A DNA stretch of 42,520 nt from Clostridiales bacterium (GTDB lineage Bacteria > Bacillota > Clostridia > Oscillospirales > CAG-272). This document shows, piece after piece, positions 6,773-42,394 of this stretch. The DNA is taken from contig DUUJ01000018.1 of the NCBI GenBank assembly GCA_012841635.1, positions 1 to 42,520 on the forward strand, in the 5' to 3' direction. The notes beneath the pieces were generated by a model. It made no database searches and was not told where the DNA came from. It saw nothing but the letters and a program-made list of their open reading frames with translations. Position 1 is the stretch's first letter. The number at the start of each line of letters is the position of its first letter. The position numbers and the translations under genes were made by a program.

Positions 6773-7795
6773 TTACCGGCTGACCCGGCCGCTGCCGCCG
6801 CTTTCGATGAGCGCGTCGATCTCGGCTTTTGAAGCCGAGGTGAAGTCCCCCTCAACGCTGTGCTTGAAGGCGGCGCAGGCGGCGGCAAATTCCGCCGTCT
6901 TCTGAGGGGAATAACCTTTAAGCATTCCGTATATAACCCCGGCTGCCGCGGCGTCCCCTCCGCCGATCCTGTCGACTATAGTTATATGATATTCGGCGGA
7001 ATCGCAAATCTCGCCGGTTTCGGCGTCGTAAAGCCGGACGGCGTAGTCGTTTTCCGATGAGGATATCGACTTTCTCATCGAAAATACCGTCGTCGATATG
7101 CCGAATCGTTCTTTAAGTTCGGCTCCTATCCTGATATATTTGCCCTCCGGGATGTTGTCCCGGTCGGGAGCGTCGGTTTTTATCCCGAACATCGCGGCCA
7201 AATCGTCAAGCCCACAGGCGAGAACGTCGGTATAACGCAGAAGGCGGCTCATAGTTTTGCCGGCGGTTTCGGCGTCCCAGAGGTTTTTGCGGAAATTTAG
7301 GTCACAGCTTACCTTTACGCCGAGTTGTTTCGCGGTTTTTAAAGCGTCTTCTGTTGCCTGCGCGGCGGATGAGCTTATCGCCGGAGTTATGCCGGTGAAA
7401 TGGAACCGGCGGGCGCCTCGCAATATCTCCTCCCAGTCGTACTCCGACGGGTCGGCAAGCGCGGCGGATGAGCCTTTGCGGTCGTATATCACTCTTGAAG
7501 GGCGCTGAGACGCGCCTTTTTCGTGGAAATATATCCCGACTCTTCCCTCCCGGCGGAGAATTTTGCCGACGCCGACGCCATAGCTTCGCAGGGCATTTAT
7601 CGCCGCCTGACCCAGGTCGCCTTCGGGAAAAGCCGTCACCATGTCGACGGAAATGCCGAGCTGCGCCAGCGCGACGGCGACATTCGCCTCCGCTCCTCCC
7701 CACTCAAGCTCAAAAGAGGAGGCTTGCAGAAACCTCGCGTATCCGGGCGGGGTCAGCCGCATCATAAGCTCGCCGAAGCAGATCACATCAGCCAT
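6773..7795 (-). CDS. kdgK: PfkB-family sugar kinase, 2-dehydro-3-deoxygluconokinase-like
   Basis: FGELMMRLTPP N-terminus, NVAVALAQLG, C-terminal DRIGGGDAAAAG anion-hole/catalytic motif. Confidence 0.8.
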   Translation of the reverse strand: MADVICFGELMMRLTPPGYARFLQASSFELEWGGAEANVAVALAQLGISVDMVTAFPEGDLGQAAINALRSYGVGVGKILRREGRVGIYFHEKGASQRPSRVIYDRKGSSAALADPSEYDWEEILRGARRFHFTGITPAISSSAAQATEDALKTAKQLGVKVSCDLNFRKNLWDAETAGKTMSRLLRYTDVLACGLDDLAAMFGIKTDAPDRDNIPEGKYIRIGAELKERFGISTTVFSMRKSISSSENDYAVRLYDAETGEICDSAEYHITIVDRIGGGDAAAAGVIYGMLKGYSPQKTAEFAAACAAFKHSVEGDFTSASKAEIDALIESGGSGRVSR

Positions 7796-7880
7796 AATAT
7801 ATTGTCGCCGGCAAAACGTTTCGTCCTGCCGCGCTCTCCTTTCCTGTCAAAATTATATCCGATATATCCAATCTGAAACT

Positions 7881-7909
7881 ATTATAACCGTTTTTGCGCG
7901 ATCAGTCAA
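7881..7909 (-). promoter_or_regulatory. promoter of the kdgK-like operon: TTGACT-N17-TATAAT
   Basis: Reverse complement of 7881-7909. Confidence 0.7.
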
Positions 7910-7973
7910 CACCCGGCGGAAATTTTATCCGAAATCACGGAAAAAGCCATATGCCGAGATTTTTGCAAAAGTG

Positions 7974-8002
7974 TTGATTTGAGCCGTTGTTTGTGATATA
8001 CT
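7974..8002 (+). promoter_or_regulatory. promoter of the GH36-like gene: TTGATT-N17-TATACT
   Basis: -35/-10 elements with a 17-nt spacer, about 44 bp upstream of the start codon. Confidence 0.55.
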
Positions 8003-8045
8003 TACAAAAAATATATCTGCGCGGACTTCAAGAGGAAAGGAAATT

Positions 8046-10361
8046 ATGAAAAAGAAAATTCTCTCGTCGATTCTGCTGATTCTGCTCATACTGTTTGCCG
8101 CTGCGCCGGCGTGCACATCAAAAACGGAAAATAGCGAAAGCAAGCAGTCGAACGGCGCCGTGCCCCGGAAAGGAGAAGATATGGAAAATACAAAAAATTA
8201 CGGAACTGACGAGCCGGTCATCGAAGGGGCGGCGGGGATAAAGCCGGATTTCGATTCGCTCGACAAAAACGCGAAATCCTGGGAACTCTCCACGTCGAGC
8301 TGTCATATCAAAATATCCCTCGGCGACGGCGGGAAAGCCGCCGTAACCTCATTTAAATCAGCCGGTTCCGATAACGAATGGATAAAAGAGCCGGCATATT
8401 TCAAGCTTCCGAAAAAATACAGGCTGGAGACAAAATTTACGGATCACGCATGGAAATACGCGGGCGCGTCCTTCACCGGCGCCGCGGGAACCCTCTCTCT
8501 TTACTACGAAGACGAGACCGCCGCCGCGGCTTATATGATCTCCTGCAAGGGCTGCGAAATCGCCGGCCCGTTCGAATTTTCGGCGAAAATCTTCAACTTT
8601 TCGGAAAATGACATCCGCGTCTTCCCCGGCGATTATTTTATTGCGAATGTATGCGCGGACGCAGTTCCCGACGCATGGCGGATCGCCAAGGAGAGCGGCG
8701 AAGCGGAGGGCTTCGACAGATTTCCCGGCAGCGGCATCTACACAGAACCCCTCTCCGCCGGCAAAAAATATGTCGCCGACGTCTCGACTTTTCAGGATCA
8801 CAACTCGGGCGGCTTCATACCGATGATATATATCGACGACAGCTCAGAGCGGGGAGTGTTCGCCGCGATGGAATGGTCGAGCGGCTGCGTTGCGGCAAGA
8901 GGATTTGATTTTGCCGACGGAACGGCGGGCGGCGTTGAACTCAGCGTCAATCTCGGCTCGAACTTCAACACGATTCTTCCTTCGGGAGACGCATTATATA
9001 TACCGACGGTTTATTTCGGCTCGTATACGGGCGATGTCGACGACGGGAGCAATCTGTTCAGGCGCTGGTTCTTCAATGAAAAATCGCCCGCATGCCTTAG
9101 GGAAAACGAAAACGAGCCGCTGACGCAGATGGATATACAGCTGGGGCTTGATGTAGAGGGGCTGGGCATACAGTCTATCAAGTGGGATTACGGCTGGTGG
9201 TCGAACGACCGGGACCCCGATTCATACGAATGGACGAGAACCCTTGAGGGAGACTGGAAGCTCCGCAACACGGCATATCTGGGCGTCCTTAATGCATACA
9301 ACTGCTCAGGTATGGGCGAATTCGGAAGTCTCGCAAAAGAGAGGGGGCTTAACTGGACGCTTTACTGGCTGCTCCACGATTCTCGCTCCGAAACCGAAGA
9401 CGCTCTGACTTCCGTCGGCGAAAACGGTCATCCGGAATGGTTCTCCAACCGCAAGATAACCTCCGGGCACTCCGCCGATCTCGGAAACGAAGACTGCGTG
9501 AAATTCCTGCAGACGACGATGACGAAGCTCTTCAGGGAATACAACATCGGAACCTGGAGAAGCGACTTTGAGCCGATATGCTGTTTTTCGGACAAACAGA
9601 ACCGCCACGATGCCGACGGCAACGACGTTCAGTATTGGTGCACGGTGGGATTTCTTGAGCTTGTCGATCAACTTTACGCGAACGTCGAAGGCTTCCGTTA
9701 CGAATCCTGCAGCAGCGGCGGCAGCATGAAGGATTTTCTGACAATGACGCGCGCGGTTGTCATAAACAACGACGACTCGGCTAATTACAACAGCCTGCGA
9801 ACCACCTTCTACGATTCCTCCTACTGCATTCATCCTGCGCAGCTGCAGCTTCCCTGCAACCCGGACACCTTTTGCCGGGAGAGTCAATTCTACGACGAGC
9901 CGGGCGACAAAGACTACGGCATGCGCAGCGTCATAATCGGCGTTCCGATGTTCGGAAGCTGGTCCGGCCCCGAAGACGGAAAGCTCAGGTTCGGCCTCAA
10001 CGAATATTACGCGAAATATCTCAACATGTATAACGAGAAGATAAAGCCGATACAGCGAGACGGCGAGCTTTATCACATCCTCCCCCGCCCCGATAATGTA
10101 AACTGGGACGGAATTCAATACGCCGACCCCGACAGTCCGAACGAAATCAAGGGCGTTGTCTTCCTGTTCAAGCCGACTGACAGCGAGGGAGCGGTGAAAA
10201 ACATCGTCCTGCGCGGGCTTGACCCCGACGCGGCATATTCGCTCGAATTTGAAGACAGACCGGAACAGAATACATCGAAAACCGGCGCGGAGCTGATGAG
10301 CGCCGGAATTGAAGTTACGATAGAGCAGGAATGCGGCTCGGAGATTATCTGGATAAAGTGA
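8046..10361 (+). CDS. secreted lipoprotein, GH36/melibiase-like glycoside hydrolase
   Basis: Lipobox-like APACTS; IKWDYGWW, FRYESCSSGG and NNDDSANYNSLRTT resemble GH36 active-site blocks. Confidence 0.75.
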   Translation: MKKKILSSILLILLILFAAAPACTSKTENSESKQSNGAVPRKGEDMENTKNYGTDEPVIEGAAGIKPDFDSLDKNAKSWELSTSSCHIKISLGDGGKAAVTSFKSAGSDNEWIKEPAYFKLPKKYRLETKFTDHAWKYAGASFTGAAGTLSLYYEDETAAAAYMISCKGCEIAGPFEFSAKIFNFSENDIRVFPGDYFIANVCADAVPDAWRIAKESGEAEGFDRFPGSGIYTEPLSAGKKYVADVSTFQDHNSGGFIPMIYIDDSSERGVFAAMEWSSGCVAARGFDFADGTAGGVELSVNLGSNFNTILPSGDALYIPTVYFGSYTGDVDDGSNLFRRWFFNEKSPACLRENENEPLTQMDIQLGLDVEGLGIQSIKWDYGWWSNDRDPDSYEWTRTLEGDWKLRNTAYLGVLNAYNCSGMGEFGSLAKERGLNWTLYWLLHDSRSETEDALTSVGENGHPEWFSNRKITSGHSADLGNEDCVKFLQTTMTKLFREYNIGTWRSDFEPICCFSDKQNRHDADGNDVQYWCTVGFLELVDQLYANVEGFRYESCSSGGSMKDFLTMTRAVVINNDDSANYNSLRTTFYDSSYCIHPAQLQLPCNPDTFCRESQFYDEPGDKDYGMRSVIIGVPMFGSWSGPEDGKLRFGLNEYYAKYLNMYNEKIKPIQRDGELYHILPRPDNVNWDGIQYADPDSPNEIKGVVFLFKPTDSEGAVKNIVLRGLDPDAAYSLEFEDRPEQNTSKTGAELMSAGIEVTIEQECGSEIIWIK

Positions 10362-36209: not shown

Positions 36210-38081
36210 TTAAACCACCGGAAACGACAGCAGCGCCTTGAACAAATCTCCGTCGATTTCTATCCGCAGGCTGCCGCCCATGAGTTCGGCGATACTTTTC
36301 GCTATCGAAAGCCCGAGGCCGTTGCCGTCGGTGTGTCTTGATTCGTCGCCGCGGGTAAAGCGCTCCATCAGCTCCTCCTCGGTCATGTCGAGAGGATCGC
36401 GGCTGGTATTCTTGAAGCTGAACAGCGCGAATCTGCCGACTTTCTCCAGCGTCAGATATACCCTCGTCCCTTCAAGGGCGTATTTTTCGATGTTGTTCAT
36501 CAGGTTGTCGAAGATGCGCATCATCCGCCGTCCGTCCGCCATAACGGTAAGCTTCTCATCCGGCATCCGGACGATAAGAGAGAGACCGGCGGCATCGAGC
36601 CGTTCCTGATATTCCCCCGCCGCCTGAGTTACGAAAGTCTCAGCGTCGCAGGGGGCTTTTATAATCTCAAGACTGCCGCTCTGCGCCTTCGACGCCTCGA
36701 CAAGGTCATCGATAAGCCGCTTCAATTTGTCCGACTGACGGCTGAGCACCTGCGAATATTCAATTATCTTTTCGTTTTCGGTTTTCTCTTTTGAGATAAG
36801 TTCCGTATAATTTATGATCGATGTCAGCGGGGTTTTGATGTCGTGCGAAACGTTGGTGATTAGTTCGGTTTTCATCCGTTCGCTTTTCATCCGCTCATCC
36901 ACCGCCGCAGAAATGGCGCCTGCGATGCCGTTGAGGTTTTCGCCGTGCTTTTTGAAATCAAGGAACATCCCTTTTGTATCGGTGAGGCAGCCGAGGTCGC
37001 CTTTTGCCAGCCGCTCGCCGCTCTTTTGCAGCCGCCGCATCAGCACTGCGACATATAGAATTGCCGGGAAGACGATAAGGCGGCTGAAAAACCAGAGCGC
37101 CGCAAGATTTGGGTATGAGTATACGCCGACATACAGCGCGAACAGCTCAGAAAGCCCGACGCCCAGAAGCAGGAGTATCGTCTTCCAGACAAGCGGCATC
37201 TCGCGCAGAAATCCGCCCAGAAACCTCAAAATTCTTAAAATAAGACTGCCAAAAGAGCAAAAGGTATTCTGGAGAAACCGGATCATCCCCCAGAATACGG
37301 TATTGGTAAACAGCGTCCCCTCTTTCAGCCGCGCCGCCGCCGACATGCAGGTACCGAGAAAGACGGCAATCTCAATTAAAGTGAATACGCCGAGGACGAT
37401 TAAAACGCCGTAATTTGTGCCGGAACCGAAGATTTCGACGGCGACGGCAAGATACACAAAATTCGGCAGCATCAATATATCGAACGGCAGTCGGTTAAGC
37501 GGTCCCATATGCAGCTCGTCGTCTTCCGGACGCCGCCCGGAAACGCTCATCAGCGCGACGAAGAGCAGCACAGCCGACACCGCTGCCGCGGGCGCGATAT
37601 AGAGCACCGCGTATCTCGCCCGATAGCAAATCCGGATTGCTTTGACGCCCAAAGAGATATCGTCCCGAACCGGAAGATCCTCTTTCAGAGAGATTTCGAG
37701 GGTGTATTTTGCCTTGCCTTCGCCGAAATATCTGTTTTGATCTTCGGTGAATTCGTATGACCGCGTGAAGCTGTCGGCGTGTTTCTCGGCGGAGGAGGAA
37801 AGAGTTTCCTTTTTTGTGTCGTTATCGGTCAGCCGCCAGCAAAAGTTTTCGTTGATGTCACTGTTGTCGCCGTTTAATGCGCGATTGAGAAAATAATCGG
37901 CCCTCGAATGCATCTGTCTTTCGATGTATATATCCGCCGAATACTGCTCGGTTTTGACATAAAGTCCGTAATCGTAAAAGAACGCCGCGGCAAGCGCCGA
38001 TCCCGCCGCCGCGATGATCGACAGCGCGCAGAGCAAAAAGAGCAGTGTTTTTCCGATAACGCTTCTTAAAAATCGTTTCAT
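36210..38081 (-). CDS. membrane sensor histidine kinase
   Basis: ITNVSHDIKTPLTSIINYTELI H-box, DNLMNNIEKYA N-box, GNGLGLSIAKSIAELMGG; multiple TM helices. Confidence 0.95.
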   Translation of the reverse strand: MKRFLRSVIGKTLLFLLCALSIIAAAGSALAAAFFYDYGLYVKTEQYSADIYIERQMHSRADYFLNRALNGDNSDINENFCWRLTDNDTKKETLSSSAEKHADSFTRSYEFTEDQNRYFGEGKAKYTLEISLKEDLPVRDDISLGVKAIRICYRARYAVLYIAPAAAVSAVLLFVALMSVSGRRPEDDELHMGPLNRLPFDILMLPNFVYLAVAVEIFGSGTNYGVLIVLGVFTLIEIAVFLGTCMSAAARLKEGTLFTNTVFWGMIRFLQNTFCSFGSLILRILRFLGGFLREMPLVWKTILLLLGVGLSELFALYVGVYSYPNLAALWFFSRLIVFPAILYVAVLMRRLQKSGERLAKGDLGCLTDTKGMFLDFKKHGENLNGIAGAISAAVDERMKSERMKTELITNVSHDIKTPLTSIINYTELISKEKTENEKIIEYSQVLSRQSDKLKRLIDDLVEASKAQSGSLEIIKAPCDAETFVTQAAGEYQERLDAAGLSLIVRMPDEKLTVMADGRRMMRIFDNLMNNIEKYALEGTRVYLTLEKVGRFALFSFKNTSRDPLDMTEEELMERFTRGDESRHTDGNGLGLSIAKSIAELMGGSLRIEIDGDLFKALLSFPVV

Positions 38082-38083
38082 CT

Positions 38084-38785
38084 CTATTTCACCTTCTCCA
38101 TCTTATAGCCCTGACCGAAAATCACCTTGATATAGCGCGGGTCCGAGGGGTTTATCTCGATCTTTTCCCTTATATGCCGGATATGAACGGCGACGGTGCT
38201 TTCCGAACCCAGCGGCTTTTCCCGCCAGACGAGGGAATAAATCTCCTTCGGACTGAATACCTTTCCCGGATTGCGCATGAAAAGCCGGAGTATTTCGTAT
38301 TCCTTCGGCGTAAGCGCGGCTTCTTCTCCGTCGACGCTGACGGTTTTTGCCGCGTCGTCGAGTTCAAGCCCGCCGATTATAAGGGTTTCCCCGCCCGGCT
38401 CGCCGGAGCCTAACCTTATATACCGCCGCAGGGCGGATCTTACCCTCGCGCAGACTTCCGACGGGTTGAAGGGCTTGGTGATATAGTCGTCCGCGCCGCA
38501 GTCAAGGCCGAGAATCTTGTCCGAGTCTTCGCTTTTCGCGGTGAGCATTATAATGGGAACGTTCGAAAACTCGCGTATCTTCGCCATCGCGGCGATGCCG
38601 TCCATCCAGGGCATCATTATATCCATTAAAATTAGGTGCAGCTCCTCGCGGGAGGCGATATCCACCGCTTCAACTCCGTTTTCCGCCTCGAAAATGGCGT
38701 AATCGGGGTTTGAGAGGTAAATTTTCAGCGCCGACAGTATGTCGCGGTCGTCGTCGCAAATAAGTATGTTTGGCATGGCGTTCAT
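38084..38785 (-). CDS. OmpR/PhoB-family response regulator
   Basis: ILICDDDRDI, LILMDIMMPWMDG, GADDYITKPFNP receiver; C-terminal wHTH LTPKEYEILRLFMRNPGKVFS. Confidence 0.95.
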   Translation of the reverse strand: MNAMPNILICDDDRDILSALKIYLSNPDYAIFEAENGVEAVDIASREELHLILMDIMMPWMDGIAAMAKIREFSNVPIIMLTAKSEDSDKILGLDCGADDYITKPFNPSEVCARVRSALRRYIRLGSGEPGGETLIIGGLELDDAAKTVSVDGEEAALTPKEYEILRLFMRNPGKVFSPKEIYSLVWREKPLGSESTVAVHIRHIREKIEINPSDPRYIKVIFGQGYKMEKVK

Positions 38786-38896
38786 CCTTTCCGTATAATA
38801 TTATACCATATCGGCGATTAAGAGTAAACAGCGGCCGGGATTAAGATTTTCTTAAGAAAACAACAATTTAAGTCTTCATTTTTGTTAAAAACATCA

Positions 38897-38925
38897 TTGA
38901 CATACTTTAATTGCCGTGTTATAAT
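38897..38925 (+). promoter_or_regulatory. promoter of surface protein 1: TTGACA-N17-TATAAT
   Basis: 38897-38902 and 38920-38925. Confidence 0.85.
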
Positions 38926-38984
38926 ACTATTATGTTGTAAACGCAACCAACAAGATAAACACTAAAGGAGGCATCTCAATTCTA

Positions 38985-40151
38985 ATGAAGAAACTCATTT
39001 CGATTTTCGCGGTCGCCGCGATGCTGCTCTGCGCATTCACCGCCGCAGCTTCGGCCGCGGAACTGCAGAACTACTGCAAAAAAGCGACGATACTTGAGGT
39101 ATCCGCCGCAGTTGACGCAAACCCCGCGACCAACGCCATCGACGGCAAGGGCGACACCTTCTGGGCTTCCGGAAAGGTAGACACCGCCAACATCGTAGTT
39201 GATCTCGGCAAGCCGATGCCGGTCGGATACATCCAGATCATCTGGGGCGACGATTACGCCGTCAGCTACGGCTTAGGCACATCTTCCAACGCCGAAGCGG
39301 TCGCCGGAACCGACGTGTATGAATCCAAAGGCGGCACCGACGAGATCACCCTCGACAGCATCACCACCATGCGCTGCCTCAACTTTGAGCTTTACAAGCC
39401 CTCCGGCTCAAACGGCTTTGCTATAAAAGAAATCGTTATCAGAAGAACCGCCGACGCGACCGAAGCGGCGGCTTCCGGTTACCCGAGCTCCGGCGTGACC
39501 CCGCCCGACGGCTCATTTATAATCAAAGGCGAGCTCATCGGTCTTGAGGAAGGCTGGGGCGGCAACGCCGACGCCGGCAGAGACGCTGCGTTTGACGGCG
39601 ACATCAACACCTACTTCGACCCGCTCGGCACCGGCGACGGCTACGCCGGCGTTGACGCAGGCGAACAGTATACCCTGACCTACATCGTCATTCATCCCCG
39701 CGACGGTCAGCTTCCCCGCTTCGACGGCGCTGAAATCAACGGCTCCAACGACGGCGAAAACTGGGAGCTTATCTGGATAAGCGAAGGAGAGGCTGAGGAA
39801 TGGACCTGGCAGGAAATTTCCGCCGACAAATTCAAGATTCAGAACCCGACTTTCCGCTACTTCCGCTATTTCAACGAATACACCCACGGCGACGTCGGTG
39901 AGGTTGAGCTTTACGGCGTTCCGGTTGACGGCACCGTCGACTGGCTCCCCGTTGAAGAAGAAATTATAATCGAAGAAGAGGCGCCGGCAGAAGCAGCGCC
40001 GGCAGAAGCAGCGCCGGCAGAAGCAGCGCCCGCGGCAGCGCCGGCTGCCCCCGCGGCTTCCCCGCAGACATCCGATGCCCTTTCGCTTGTCGTCGCGGCG
40101 GCCGTCATGGCGCTCGGTTCCGCAGTTATCGTCTCAAAGAAGAGAAAATAA
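38985..40151 (+). CDS. secreted surface protein, two discoidin (F5/8 type C)-like domains, Ala/Pro/Glu linker, PQTSD-TM-KKRK sorting-like tail
   Basis: Signal peptide; NAIDGKGDTFWASG and AFDGDINTYFDPLG ... GSNDGENWELIW ... FRYFRYFNEYTHGDVGEVELYG; SPQTSDALSLVVAAAVMALGSAVIVSKKRK. Confidence 0.82.
   Translation: MKKLISIFAVAAMLLCAFTAAASAAELQNYCKKATILEVSAAVDANPATNAIDGKGDTFWASGKVDTANIVVDLGKPMPVGYIQIIWGDDYAVSYGLGTSSNAEAVAGTDVYESKGGTDEITLDSITTMRCLNFELYKPSGSNGFAIKEIVIRRTADATEAAASGYPSSGVTPPDGSFIIKGELIGLEEGWGGNADAGRDAAFDGDINTYFDPLGTGDGYAGVDAGEQYTLTYIVIHPRDGQLPRFDGAEINGSNDGENWELIWISEGEAEEWTWQEISADKFKIQNPTFRYFRYFNEYTHGDVGEVELYGVPVDGTVDWLPVEEEIIIEEEAPAEAAPAEAAPAEAAPAAAPAAPAASPQTSDALSLVVAAAVMALGSAVIVSKKRK
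39981..40025 (+). repeat. 15-bp tandem repeat GCGCCGGCAGAAGCA x3 in the linker of surface protein 1 (encodes APAEA)
   Basis: Three exact copies read directly, followed by a degenerate continuation. Confidence 0.95.
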
Positions 40152-40162
40152 GCTCATAACCG

Positions 40163-40207
40163 ATTCAACGAGCCTTAACTTGGTTTAAGGCTCGTTGAAT
40201 TTTTTTC
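40163..40207 (+). terminator. rho-independent terminator after surface protein 1
   Basis: TTCAACGAGCCTTAA CTTGG TTTAAGGCTCGTTGAA TTTTTTT. Confidence 0.9.
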
Positions 40208-40274
40208 GTCAGGCTGCAAATTCAGACAATATTAATAATATACCGGGGTATTTTACAATTCCTCCGAATTTTAA

Positions 40275-40306
40275 CGCAGAAAGTTTCGGCTTTCTGTGTT
40301 TTTTTG
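40275..40306 (+). terminator. second terminator-like hairpin before surface protein 2
   Basis: CAGAAAG TTTCGG CTTTCTG TGTTTTTTT; same layout as the hairpins after surface proteins 2 and 3. Confidence 0.75.
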
Positions 40307-40348
40307 CAATTATCTTAAATTTTAAGTCAAATTAATGTAAATGTATTG

Positions 40349-40377
40349 TTGACATATTGATTTTAATATGATATAAT
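40349..40377 (+). promoter_or_regulatory. promoter of surface protein 2: TTGACA-N17-TATAAT
   Basis: 40349-40354 and 40372-40377. Confidence 0.85.
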
Positions 40378-40428
40378 TATGACAAGCTCAATAAACCGGG
40401 CGTTACATGTATAAGGAGAGAGGACACC

Positions 40429-41193
40429 ATGAAAAAACTAATTGCAATTGCGATCATGCTGGCGCTTGTTCTTACCGTCGCTTCCGCGGCGGAAGGCGTC
40501 GGCGATGCTTATCCGAGCTCCGGCGTGACCCCGCCGGAAGGTTCCGCTATCATTAAAGGCGAGCTTATCGGTCTTGAAGTAGGCTGGGGCGAAAACGCCG
40601 ACGCCGGCAGAGCCGCCGCGTTTGACGGCGATATCTTCACCTTCTTCGACCCGCTCGGCACTGGCGACGGCTACGCAGGCATCGATGCGGGCGAAGAATA
40701 TATTCTAACCTACATCGTTATTCATCCGCGTGACGGCTTTTTGGATCGCTTTGACGGCGCAGAAATCAACGGCTCCAACGACGGCGAGAACTGGGATCTC
40801 ATCTGGATGAACGAAGAAGGTGAGGCTGCCGAATGGGATTGGCAGAAGATTCCCGCCGACCAGTTCAAGATCAAAGACACCGGCTACCGCTACTATCGTT
40901 ACTATAACGAGCTGATGCACGGCGACGTCGGTGAAGTCGAGCTTTACGGTTATTCCAAAGCCGCCGCCGAAGCTGCCGCCGCTGCCGCCGCAGAACCCGA
41001 ACCCGTAATCGAGGAAGCTCCGGTTGAAGCCGCTCCCGAACCCGCTGCCGAACCGGCTCCTGTCGCTGAAGCAGCTCCGGCTGCCGCCGCTCCGGCGCCC
41101 GCTCCGCAGACCTCCGACATTACCGCGCTTGCGGTTGCCGCCGCCGTTATGGCTCTCGGTTCTGCCGCCCTGGTTTCAAAGAAGAGAAGATAA
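40429..41193 (+). CDS. secreted discoidin-like surface protein 2 with PQTSD-TM-KKRR tail
   Basis: Paralogous to the second domain of surface protein 1 and to surface protein 3. Confidence 0.85.
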   Translation: MKKLIAIAIMLALVLTVASAAEGVGDAYPSSGVTPPEGSAIIKGELIGLEVGWGENADAGRAAAFDGDIFTFFDPLGTGDGYAGIDAGEEYILTYIVIHPRDGFLDRFDGAEINGSNDGENWDLIWMNEEGEAAEWDWQKIPADQFKIKDTGYRYYRYYNELMHGDVGEVELYGYSKAAAEAAAAAAAEPEPVIEEAPVEAAPEPAAEPAPVAEAAPAAAAPAPAPQTSDITALAVAAAVMALGSAALVSKKRR

Positions 41194-41226
41194 GCTCCCG
41201 ATCGAGTCAGGCAGGTCTGCCGAAAT

Positions 41227-41364
41227 CTTCACTTAATTAACAGCAGGTTCCGATAATATCAATACGAATTTGCGGTTAGCTTGACAATTCGGATAAAAAT
41301 CGTGAAAAGTTTCGACTTTTCGCGGTTTTTATTATGGTTGTTTTTCGGTTTTCTTAAAATAATT
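41227..41364 (+). repeat. intergenic cassette copy A (terminator hairpin + TTTTTCGGTTTTCTTAAAATAAT)
   Basis: Aligns by eye along its length to 42256-42394. Confidence 0.85.
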
Positions 41365-41385
41365 TCTTTTTTGCGAATATTGTTG

Positions 41386-41414
41386 TTGACATGCCGTTTT
41401 TTGTATGATATAAT
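41386..41414 (+). promoter_or_regulatory. promoter of surface protein 3: TTGACA-N17-TATAAT
   Basis: 41386-41391 and 41409-41414. Confidence 0.85.
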
Positions 41415-41466
41415 TATTGCAAGCTCCGAACAACGGTGCATAAATAATACAAAGGAGTGCATTTCC

Positions 41467-42222
41467 ATGAAAAAATTAATTGCTTTTGCAATTACGCTGG
41501 CGCTTGTTCTTACCGTCGCTTCAATGGCAGAAGGCGTCGGCGATGCTTATCCGAGCTCCGGCTTTACCCCGCCGGAAGGCTCCGCCATTATAAAGGGCGA
41601 GCTTATCGGAAACGAAGTCGGCTGGGGCGAAAGCGACGCAGCCGGCAGAGCCGCTGCGTTTGACGGCGATATCTTTACCTTCTTTGACCCGCTCGGCGTC
41701 GGAGACGGCTATGCAGGCATTGATGCCGGCGAAGAGTATGTTCTTACCTACATCGTCATTCATCCCCGTGAAAACTGGAACGCTCGCTACGACGGCGCTG
41801 AAATAAACGGCTCCAATGACGGCGAAAACTGGGATCTCATCTGGATGAACGAAGAAGGTGAGCCCGCCGAATGGGAATGGCAGTACATTCCCGCCGATCA
41901 GTTCAAGATCAAAGAACCGAGCTATCGCTACTATCGTTACTACAACGAACTGCAGCACGGTGACGTAGGCGAAGTCGAGCTTTACGGTTATTCCAAAGCC
42001 GCCGCCGCAGCTGCCGCCGCAGAACCCGAACCCGTAGTCGAGGAAGCTCCGGTTGAAGCCGCTCCCGAACCCGCTGCCGAACCGGCTCCGGTCGCCGAAG
42101 CAGCTCCGGCTGCCGCCGCGCCGGCTCCCGCTCCGCAGACCTCCGACATGACCGCGCTCGCGGTCGCTGCCGCAGTTATGGCTCTCGGTTCCGCCGTTGT
42201 CATATCGAAGAAAAGAAAGTAA
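41467..42222 (+). CDS. secreted discoidin-like surface protein 3 with PQTSD-TM-KKRK tail
   Basis: Start at MKKLIAFAITLALVL (the ORF track extends upstream to 41281, across the promoter); close paralog of surface protein 2. Confidence 0.85.
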   Translation: MKKLIAFAITLALVLTVASMAEGVGDAYPSSGFTPPEGSAIIKGELIGNEVGWGESDAAGRAAAFDGDIFTFFDPLGVGDGYAGIDAGEEYVLTYIVIHPRENWNARYDGAEINGSNDGENWDLIWMNEEGEPAEWEWQYIPADQFKIKEPSYRYYRYYNELQHGDVGEVELYGYSKAAAAAAAAEPEPVVEEAPVEAAPEPAAEPAPVAEAAPAAAAPAPAPQTSDMTALAVAAAVMALGSAVVISKKRK

Positions 42223-42255: not shown

Positions 42256-42394
42256 CTTCACATAATTAACGGCTGATACCGATAATATCAATACGGATTT
42301 GCGGTTAATTTGACAATTCGGAAAAAGTTCACGGAAAGTTATGGCTTTCCGTGATTTTTTATTGCAGTTATTTTTCGGTTCTCTTAAAATAATC
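42256..42394 (+). repeat. intergenic cassette copy B
   Basis: Direct repeat of 41227-41364; stem differs by compensatory changes. Confidence 0.85.

Follow-up and report, generated by a model that had tools for sequence, protein, structure and literature searches.

Three consecutive genes on the forward strand, at positions 38985-42222 of the window (the whole stretch analysed, 42,520 nucleotides, which is the entire contig C109 of a draft genome of 1.71 Mb and 73% completeness), encode related proteins with a discoidin module, an Ala/Pro/Glu-rich stalk and a PQTSD-hydrophobic-basic tail. A coat of stalked, CBM62-like lectins, made from this array and anchored by a class B sortase, is the best explanation for these genes and, in our judgement, a probable one. 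Strong consensus promoters would drive high expression of non-catalytic, glycan-binding surface proteins from the array; a signal peptide would secrete each precursor, with the C-terminal hydrophobic segment and basic tail holding it in the membrane; a class B sortase would cut after the Thr of [AP]-Q-T-[SGFA]-D and link the protein to the cell wall; and the acidic Ala/Pro/Glu stalk would cross the wall and display the CBM62-like lectin domain. The same stalk-tail cassette would bear CBM9-, CBM6- and other domains genome-wide.

The open reading frames are real and laid out as an earlier note on this DNA had described: the identities between the proteins and their common C-termini (PQTSD, a hydrophobic segment and SKKR[KR]) bear out a trio with a shared module, stalk and tail, and the additional, divergent N-terminal discoidin-like domain ascribed to protein 1 was recovered by profile. 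The features are listed here; the functions of the kinase and regulator, and the name of the U32 peptidase mentioned below, were read from their sequences.

36210-38081, - strand: histidine kinase, divergent from the array
38084-38785, - strand: response regulator, pairs with the kinase
38897..38925, + strand: promoter-like site of gene 1, TTGACA-17-TATAAT, 12/12
38985..40151, + strand: gene 1 (388 aa); signal peptide, two discoidin-like domains, Ala/Pro/Glu stalk, SPQTSD-TM-SKKRK
39114..39422, + strand: divergent N-terminal F5/8 type C domain of gene 1, profile match 41.6 bits
39480..39917, + strand: second discoidin (CBM62-like) module of gene 1, common to genes 2 and 3
40062..40076, + strand: PQTSD motif of gene 1, then TM segment and SKKRK up to 40148
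40162..40201, + strand: terminator-like hairpin after gene 1, 17 bp stem and T tail
40273..40300, + strand: second terminator-like hairpin in the gap between genes 1 and 2
40349..40377, + strand: promoter-like site of gene 2, 12/12, ATG 51 nt downstream
40429..41193, + strand: gene 2 (254 aa); signal peptide, one discoidin module, stalk, PQTSD-TM-SKKRR
40510..40950, + strand: discoidin (CBM62-like) module of gene 2
41104..41118, + strand: PQTSD motif of gene 2
41292..41333, + strand: terminator-like hairpin in the gap between genes 2 and 3
41386..41414, + strand: promoter-like site of gene 3, 12/12, ATG 52 nt downstream
41467..42222, + strand: gene 3 (251 aa), layout as gene 2
41548..41988, + strand: discoidin module of gene 3, fold predicted
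42133..42147, + strand: PQTSD motif of gene 3
42329..42354, + strand: terminator-like hairpin past gene 3

Proteins 2 and 3 are 88% identical (86% within the module), and the second module of protein 1 shares ~75% identity with protein 2. The values for genes 2 and 3 (dN 0.07, dS 0.42) led to the rejection of positive selection. The mechanically called frame of gene 3 starts with TTG at 41281; the ATG at 41467 is most likely the true start, since an AGGAG site precedes it and this start fits the paralogues.

There is support for the suggestion that the array extends past the window: the contig ends where the window does, and contig C75 has one more copy, the fourth, with 76% identity to protein 2. 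It is followed by a U32 peptidase gene, a neighbour that the array also has in a related genome. No exact overlap was found between the window end and contig C75; the fourth copy is therefore placed by synteny and not by assembly, and the gap between C109 and C75 may hide further copies. The syntenic relative G003 has, in this order, the regulator/kinase pair, gene 1, a gene 3-like copy, a C75-like copy and the U32 peptidase gene; a second relative, G002, has the same array genes split over two contigs. Given the G003 gene order and the C75 copy likewise adjoining a peptidase gene, the local array probably comprises at least four genes, with gene 2 as an extra copy; no counterpart of gene 2 was found in G002 or G003, so it is probably a lineage-specific duplicate. 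The kinase/regulator pair (36210..38785) flanks the array in both syntenic relatives and is a possible regulator of it.

All three array promoters are of the sigma-70 type, with TG ahead of the -10 box. At the sequence level, these individual 12/12 sites and the hairpins between the genes agree with the earlier description of the genes as separately promoted. The array region holds 16 promoter-like sites against 3.3 expected from shuffles, and seven perfect sites occur in the whole window, three of them in the array, so such promoters are not unique to it. In G002 and G003, the orthologues of gene 3 and of the C75 copy retain 12/12 promoters, and those of gene 1 have TTGACT as -35 box, with one mismatch. 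Perfect promoters were rejected as a mark of all tail genes, several others having 2-4 mismatches.

The tail reaches well beyond the array. A profile built from 15 tails of the source genome, which match by construction, detected 17 tails in that genome, 15 of them its training members, and 24, 18 and 21 tail proteins in three genus mates. Beyond the array trio, the source genome thus holds 14 further proteins with stalk, motif, TM and basic tail; the expansion that had been proposed is larger than the array, and the other PQTSD-like tails sought in the genome are present. Across the order, 14 of 245 genomes had a tail match at E <= 1e-4, with at most three each outside the source genome, so that the expansion is genus-specific as far as sampled. 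Among 53 distinct genus tails, a collection that includes a few ordinary LPxTG or PQTGD tails, Thr is invariant (53/53, through three synonymous codons), Gln is found in 52 and the P2' Asp in 47; the first motif position is Ala in 31 (~60%) and Pro in 22, and Ala stands at P4 (-1) in 48/53 (Ser in gene 1, Ala in genes 2 and 3). The genus signal reads [AP]-Q-T-[SGFA]-[DNS], which is broader than PQTSD, and more distant named relatives have P-[NAQ]-T-[FSA]-D or AQT[FG]D at the C-terminus. A literature search met the PQTSD string in three papers, none of them on sortases as judged by title or abstract.

A scan of 54 tail proteins identified 21 CBM9_1, 10 F5/8C and 3 CBM6 domains, some proteins having no family match, and no catalytic family at E <= 0.001. 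Two homologous members of the tail set, encoded near a class C sortase (L162:3453-4865 versus L161:5752-6867), differ in that one has the discoidin module: the G002 protein carries it and its G003 counterpart does not, a difference suggestive of module transfer among tail proteins.

The earlier note had made the sorting reading depend on a sortase in the genome, and three were found in this 73% complete draft, from which further sortases may be absent: a class B sortase on contig C67 (ORF 7054-8148; TIGR03064, 191.5 bits against a cut-off of 153.75) and two more, one of class C and one its unclassified partner, that surround an LPQTG protein on C129. The class B-type sortase, an open frame of 362-364 aa, is present in all four genus genomes with 65-93% identity; no tail protein is encoded next to it on C67, which makes it an orphan. 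This orphan enzyme, encoded elsewhere in the genome than the array, is likely the one that acts on the tails. A class B sortase match was present in 14/14 tail-positive genomes of the order versus 157/231 others (Fisher 0.0055), and tail and class B sortase co-occurred within the family (6/10 vs 0/8; Fisher 0.011), both tests ignoring phylogeny and tail matches outside the genus being weak. All 13 named genomes that share the module have a sortase. Eight of them have a single one, which is class B-type by profile in seven (some slightly below the curated cut-off) and by sequence in one, and most of these eight have P-x-T-x-D tails.

PQTSD is not canonical LPXTG, as the earlier note recognized: Ala or Ser precedes it, and the TIGR01167 and PF00746 scores are below cut-off. 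The motif-TM-basic layout is like that of Rumino_NPXTG (NF033846) and LPXTG_anchor (TIGR01167), whereas the array tails fall below both cut-offs (gene 1, 13.5 bits against 23.5 for NF033846). The class B substrate pattern x-P-x-T-x, with Asp at P2', a TM segment and a basic tail, is found in all three proteins as [AS]PQTSD; the N, S or P expected at P4 is replaced in the genus predominantly by Ala. B. anthracis SrtB requires Asp at P2' (PMC11987632), and since the conserved Asp of the array tails lies two residues after Thr, we read PQTSD as class B-like. In C. difficile, SrtB is the sole sortase and cuts (S/P)PXTG after Thr, leaving NPQTN and LPETG uncut (PMC4155245); comparison of the two enzymes indicates that class B specificity varies between species. 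The array-type tails resemble B. anthracis IsdC (DNPKTGDE) and the C. difficile (S/P)PXTG proteins in their [PA]-x-T-x-D, hydrophobic segment and basic tail and in the class B sortase of the genome; they further share the P2' Asp with the B. anthracis signal and, with what was proposed for C. difficile, many substrates per class B enzyme. They differ in having mostly Ala before the motif and often Ala for Pro, in allowing Ser, Phe or Ala at P1', and in forming a set of 17-24 proteins with mostly carbohydrate-binding domains. Known class B signals have N, S or P first and retain the Pro. The Ala-for-Pro tails thus exceed the class B motifs of the cited papers and would be a variant. More tentatively, a single class B sortase could have a housekeeping role, anchoring throughout the genus a coat of ~20 non-catalytic carbohydrate-binding proteins; its signal would be a relaxed one that can do without Pro but needs Thr and the P2' Asp.

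Discoidin lectins and class B sorting are both known components of such a system; the relaxed signal and a coat of binding domains without enzymes would be a novel variation on them. If true, this would give an orphan class B sortase of uncultured Clostridia many substrates, extend the class B signal to proline-less forms and reveal a surface coat of sugar-binding domains without enzymes, by which bacteria living on plant fibre or in biofilms, in digesters and the rumen, could plausibly grip polysaccharides. Current anchor models miss these proteins, and a tail model would let annotators recognise them.

The discoidin fold is borne out by structure prediction and by the PF00754 profile (F5_F8_type_C, cut-off 28.2 bits), which protein 1 matches with 70.7 bits over two stretches and protein 3 with 30.1 bits, protein 2 lying just under the cut-off at 26.8 bits. 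The AlphaFold2 model of the gene 3 module, made with 49 sequences, is a discoidin beta-sandwich (pLDDT 95.4, pTM 0.90); a full-length model of protein 1 from three sequences (pLDDT 35) was discarded. Foldseek returned 179 PDB matches for the gene 3 module at E <= 0.001, headed by discoidin or CBM32/62 entries; CBM62 gave the best TM-scores near the top of the list (0.78-0.82), and many galactose-binding CBM32s were matched as well. The best PDB match of the module profile is CtCBM62 (E 1.5e-28, whole module covered). By profile and predicted fold, the closest solved relative of the module is therefore CBM62, a galactose-binding family. Fold and profile similarity recall the CBM62 of Clostridium thermocellum Xyl5A (2yfu, 2yg0), but CtCBM62 sits within a large arabinoxylanase of many domains, whereas the array module is on a stalk without an enzyme. 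Searching the genome contigs with protein 2 alone found no relative, and a search with the module alignment found 57 loci. One discoidin paralogue in the source genome (G000:C94; L005:1354-2451), kept in G002 and G003, has 49% module identity, followed by a Listeria-Bacteroides repeat and TM-KKKRK without the QT motif.

D-galactose in the side chains of xylan has been associated with CtCBM62 (PMC5063996). The most likely ligands of the array modules would be galactose-bearing plant or microbial polysaccharides. Binding of another glycan, a lipid or a protein is a serious, though not the favoured, possibility, as F5/8 type C domains have varied ligands and the module is only ~24% identical to CtCBM62; the nearest sequences and folds, however, are galactose-binding CBM62 and CBM32 modules, and two Arg that are near-invariant in the module family align with Arg of CtCBM62.

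The tail, for its part, might be a plain membrane anchor, with QT-D inherited through recent copying of the stalk-tail cassette and no enzyme acting. This would fit a class B sortase gene unlinked to the tail genes and a tail that fails curated anchor models. Yet motif-less plain anchors do exist in the source genome, as the TM-KKKRK end of the C94 paralogue shows, QT is invariant where the membrane segment diverges strongly, Thr is fixed over its synonymous codons, and P-x-T-x-D is kept in distant relatives with different flanks, which makes a plain anchor unlikely. Processing by a class C (pilus) sortase or its partner instead of the class B enzyme is very improbable: class C sortases are present in the genus, and one tail protein lies within a few kb of one in G002 and G003, but the C129 substrate adjoining the class C enzyme carries a different signal (LPQTG), and the eight single-sortase genomes with the module pair a class B-type enzyme, for the most part, with P-x-T-x-D tails. 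The sortase-substrate-like, glycan-binding coat of the earlier note is supported by the fold, the tail set and the class B sortase, from which we infer processing and binding.

Other tails and arrays were observed alongside. Two large LPxTGG-type proteins of the source genome (G000:C43:1-4500, L156), one with a von Willebrand-like start, form a separate tail class and are probably pilins. Rumen relatives with the discoidin module (L181:10-2085, L183:4612-6711) have a different C-terminal tail, GCGSMIGGGFIVLVTxLGSAWIAKRK. The arrays of UBA3953 and AS04akNAM_119 (L167:5398-7849, L168:4186-8246) contain two and three tail genes, adjoined by an ABC transporter-like pair, and are without perfect promoters. 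In the upstream regions within 38830-41469 of the window, CTTAAAATAAT, located before the -35 box, is common to the array genes except gene 1, less clearly so in gene 2, and AAGCTCCGAA-AACGGTGCAT is common to the leaders of the array genes, again except gene 1.
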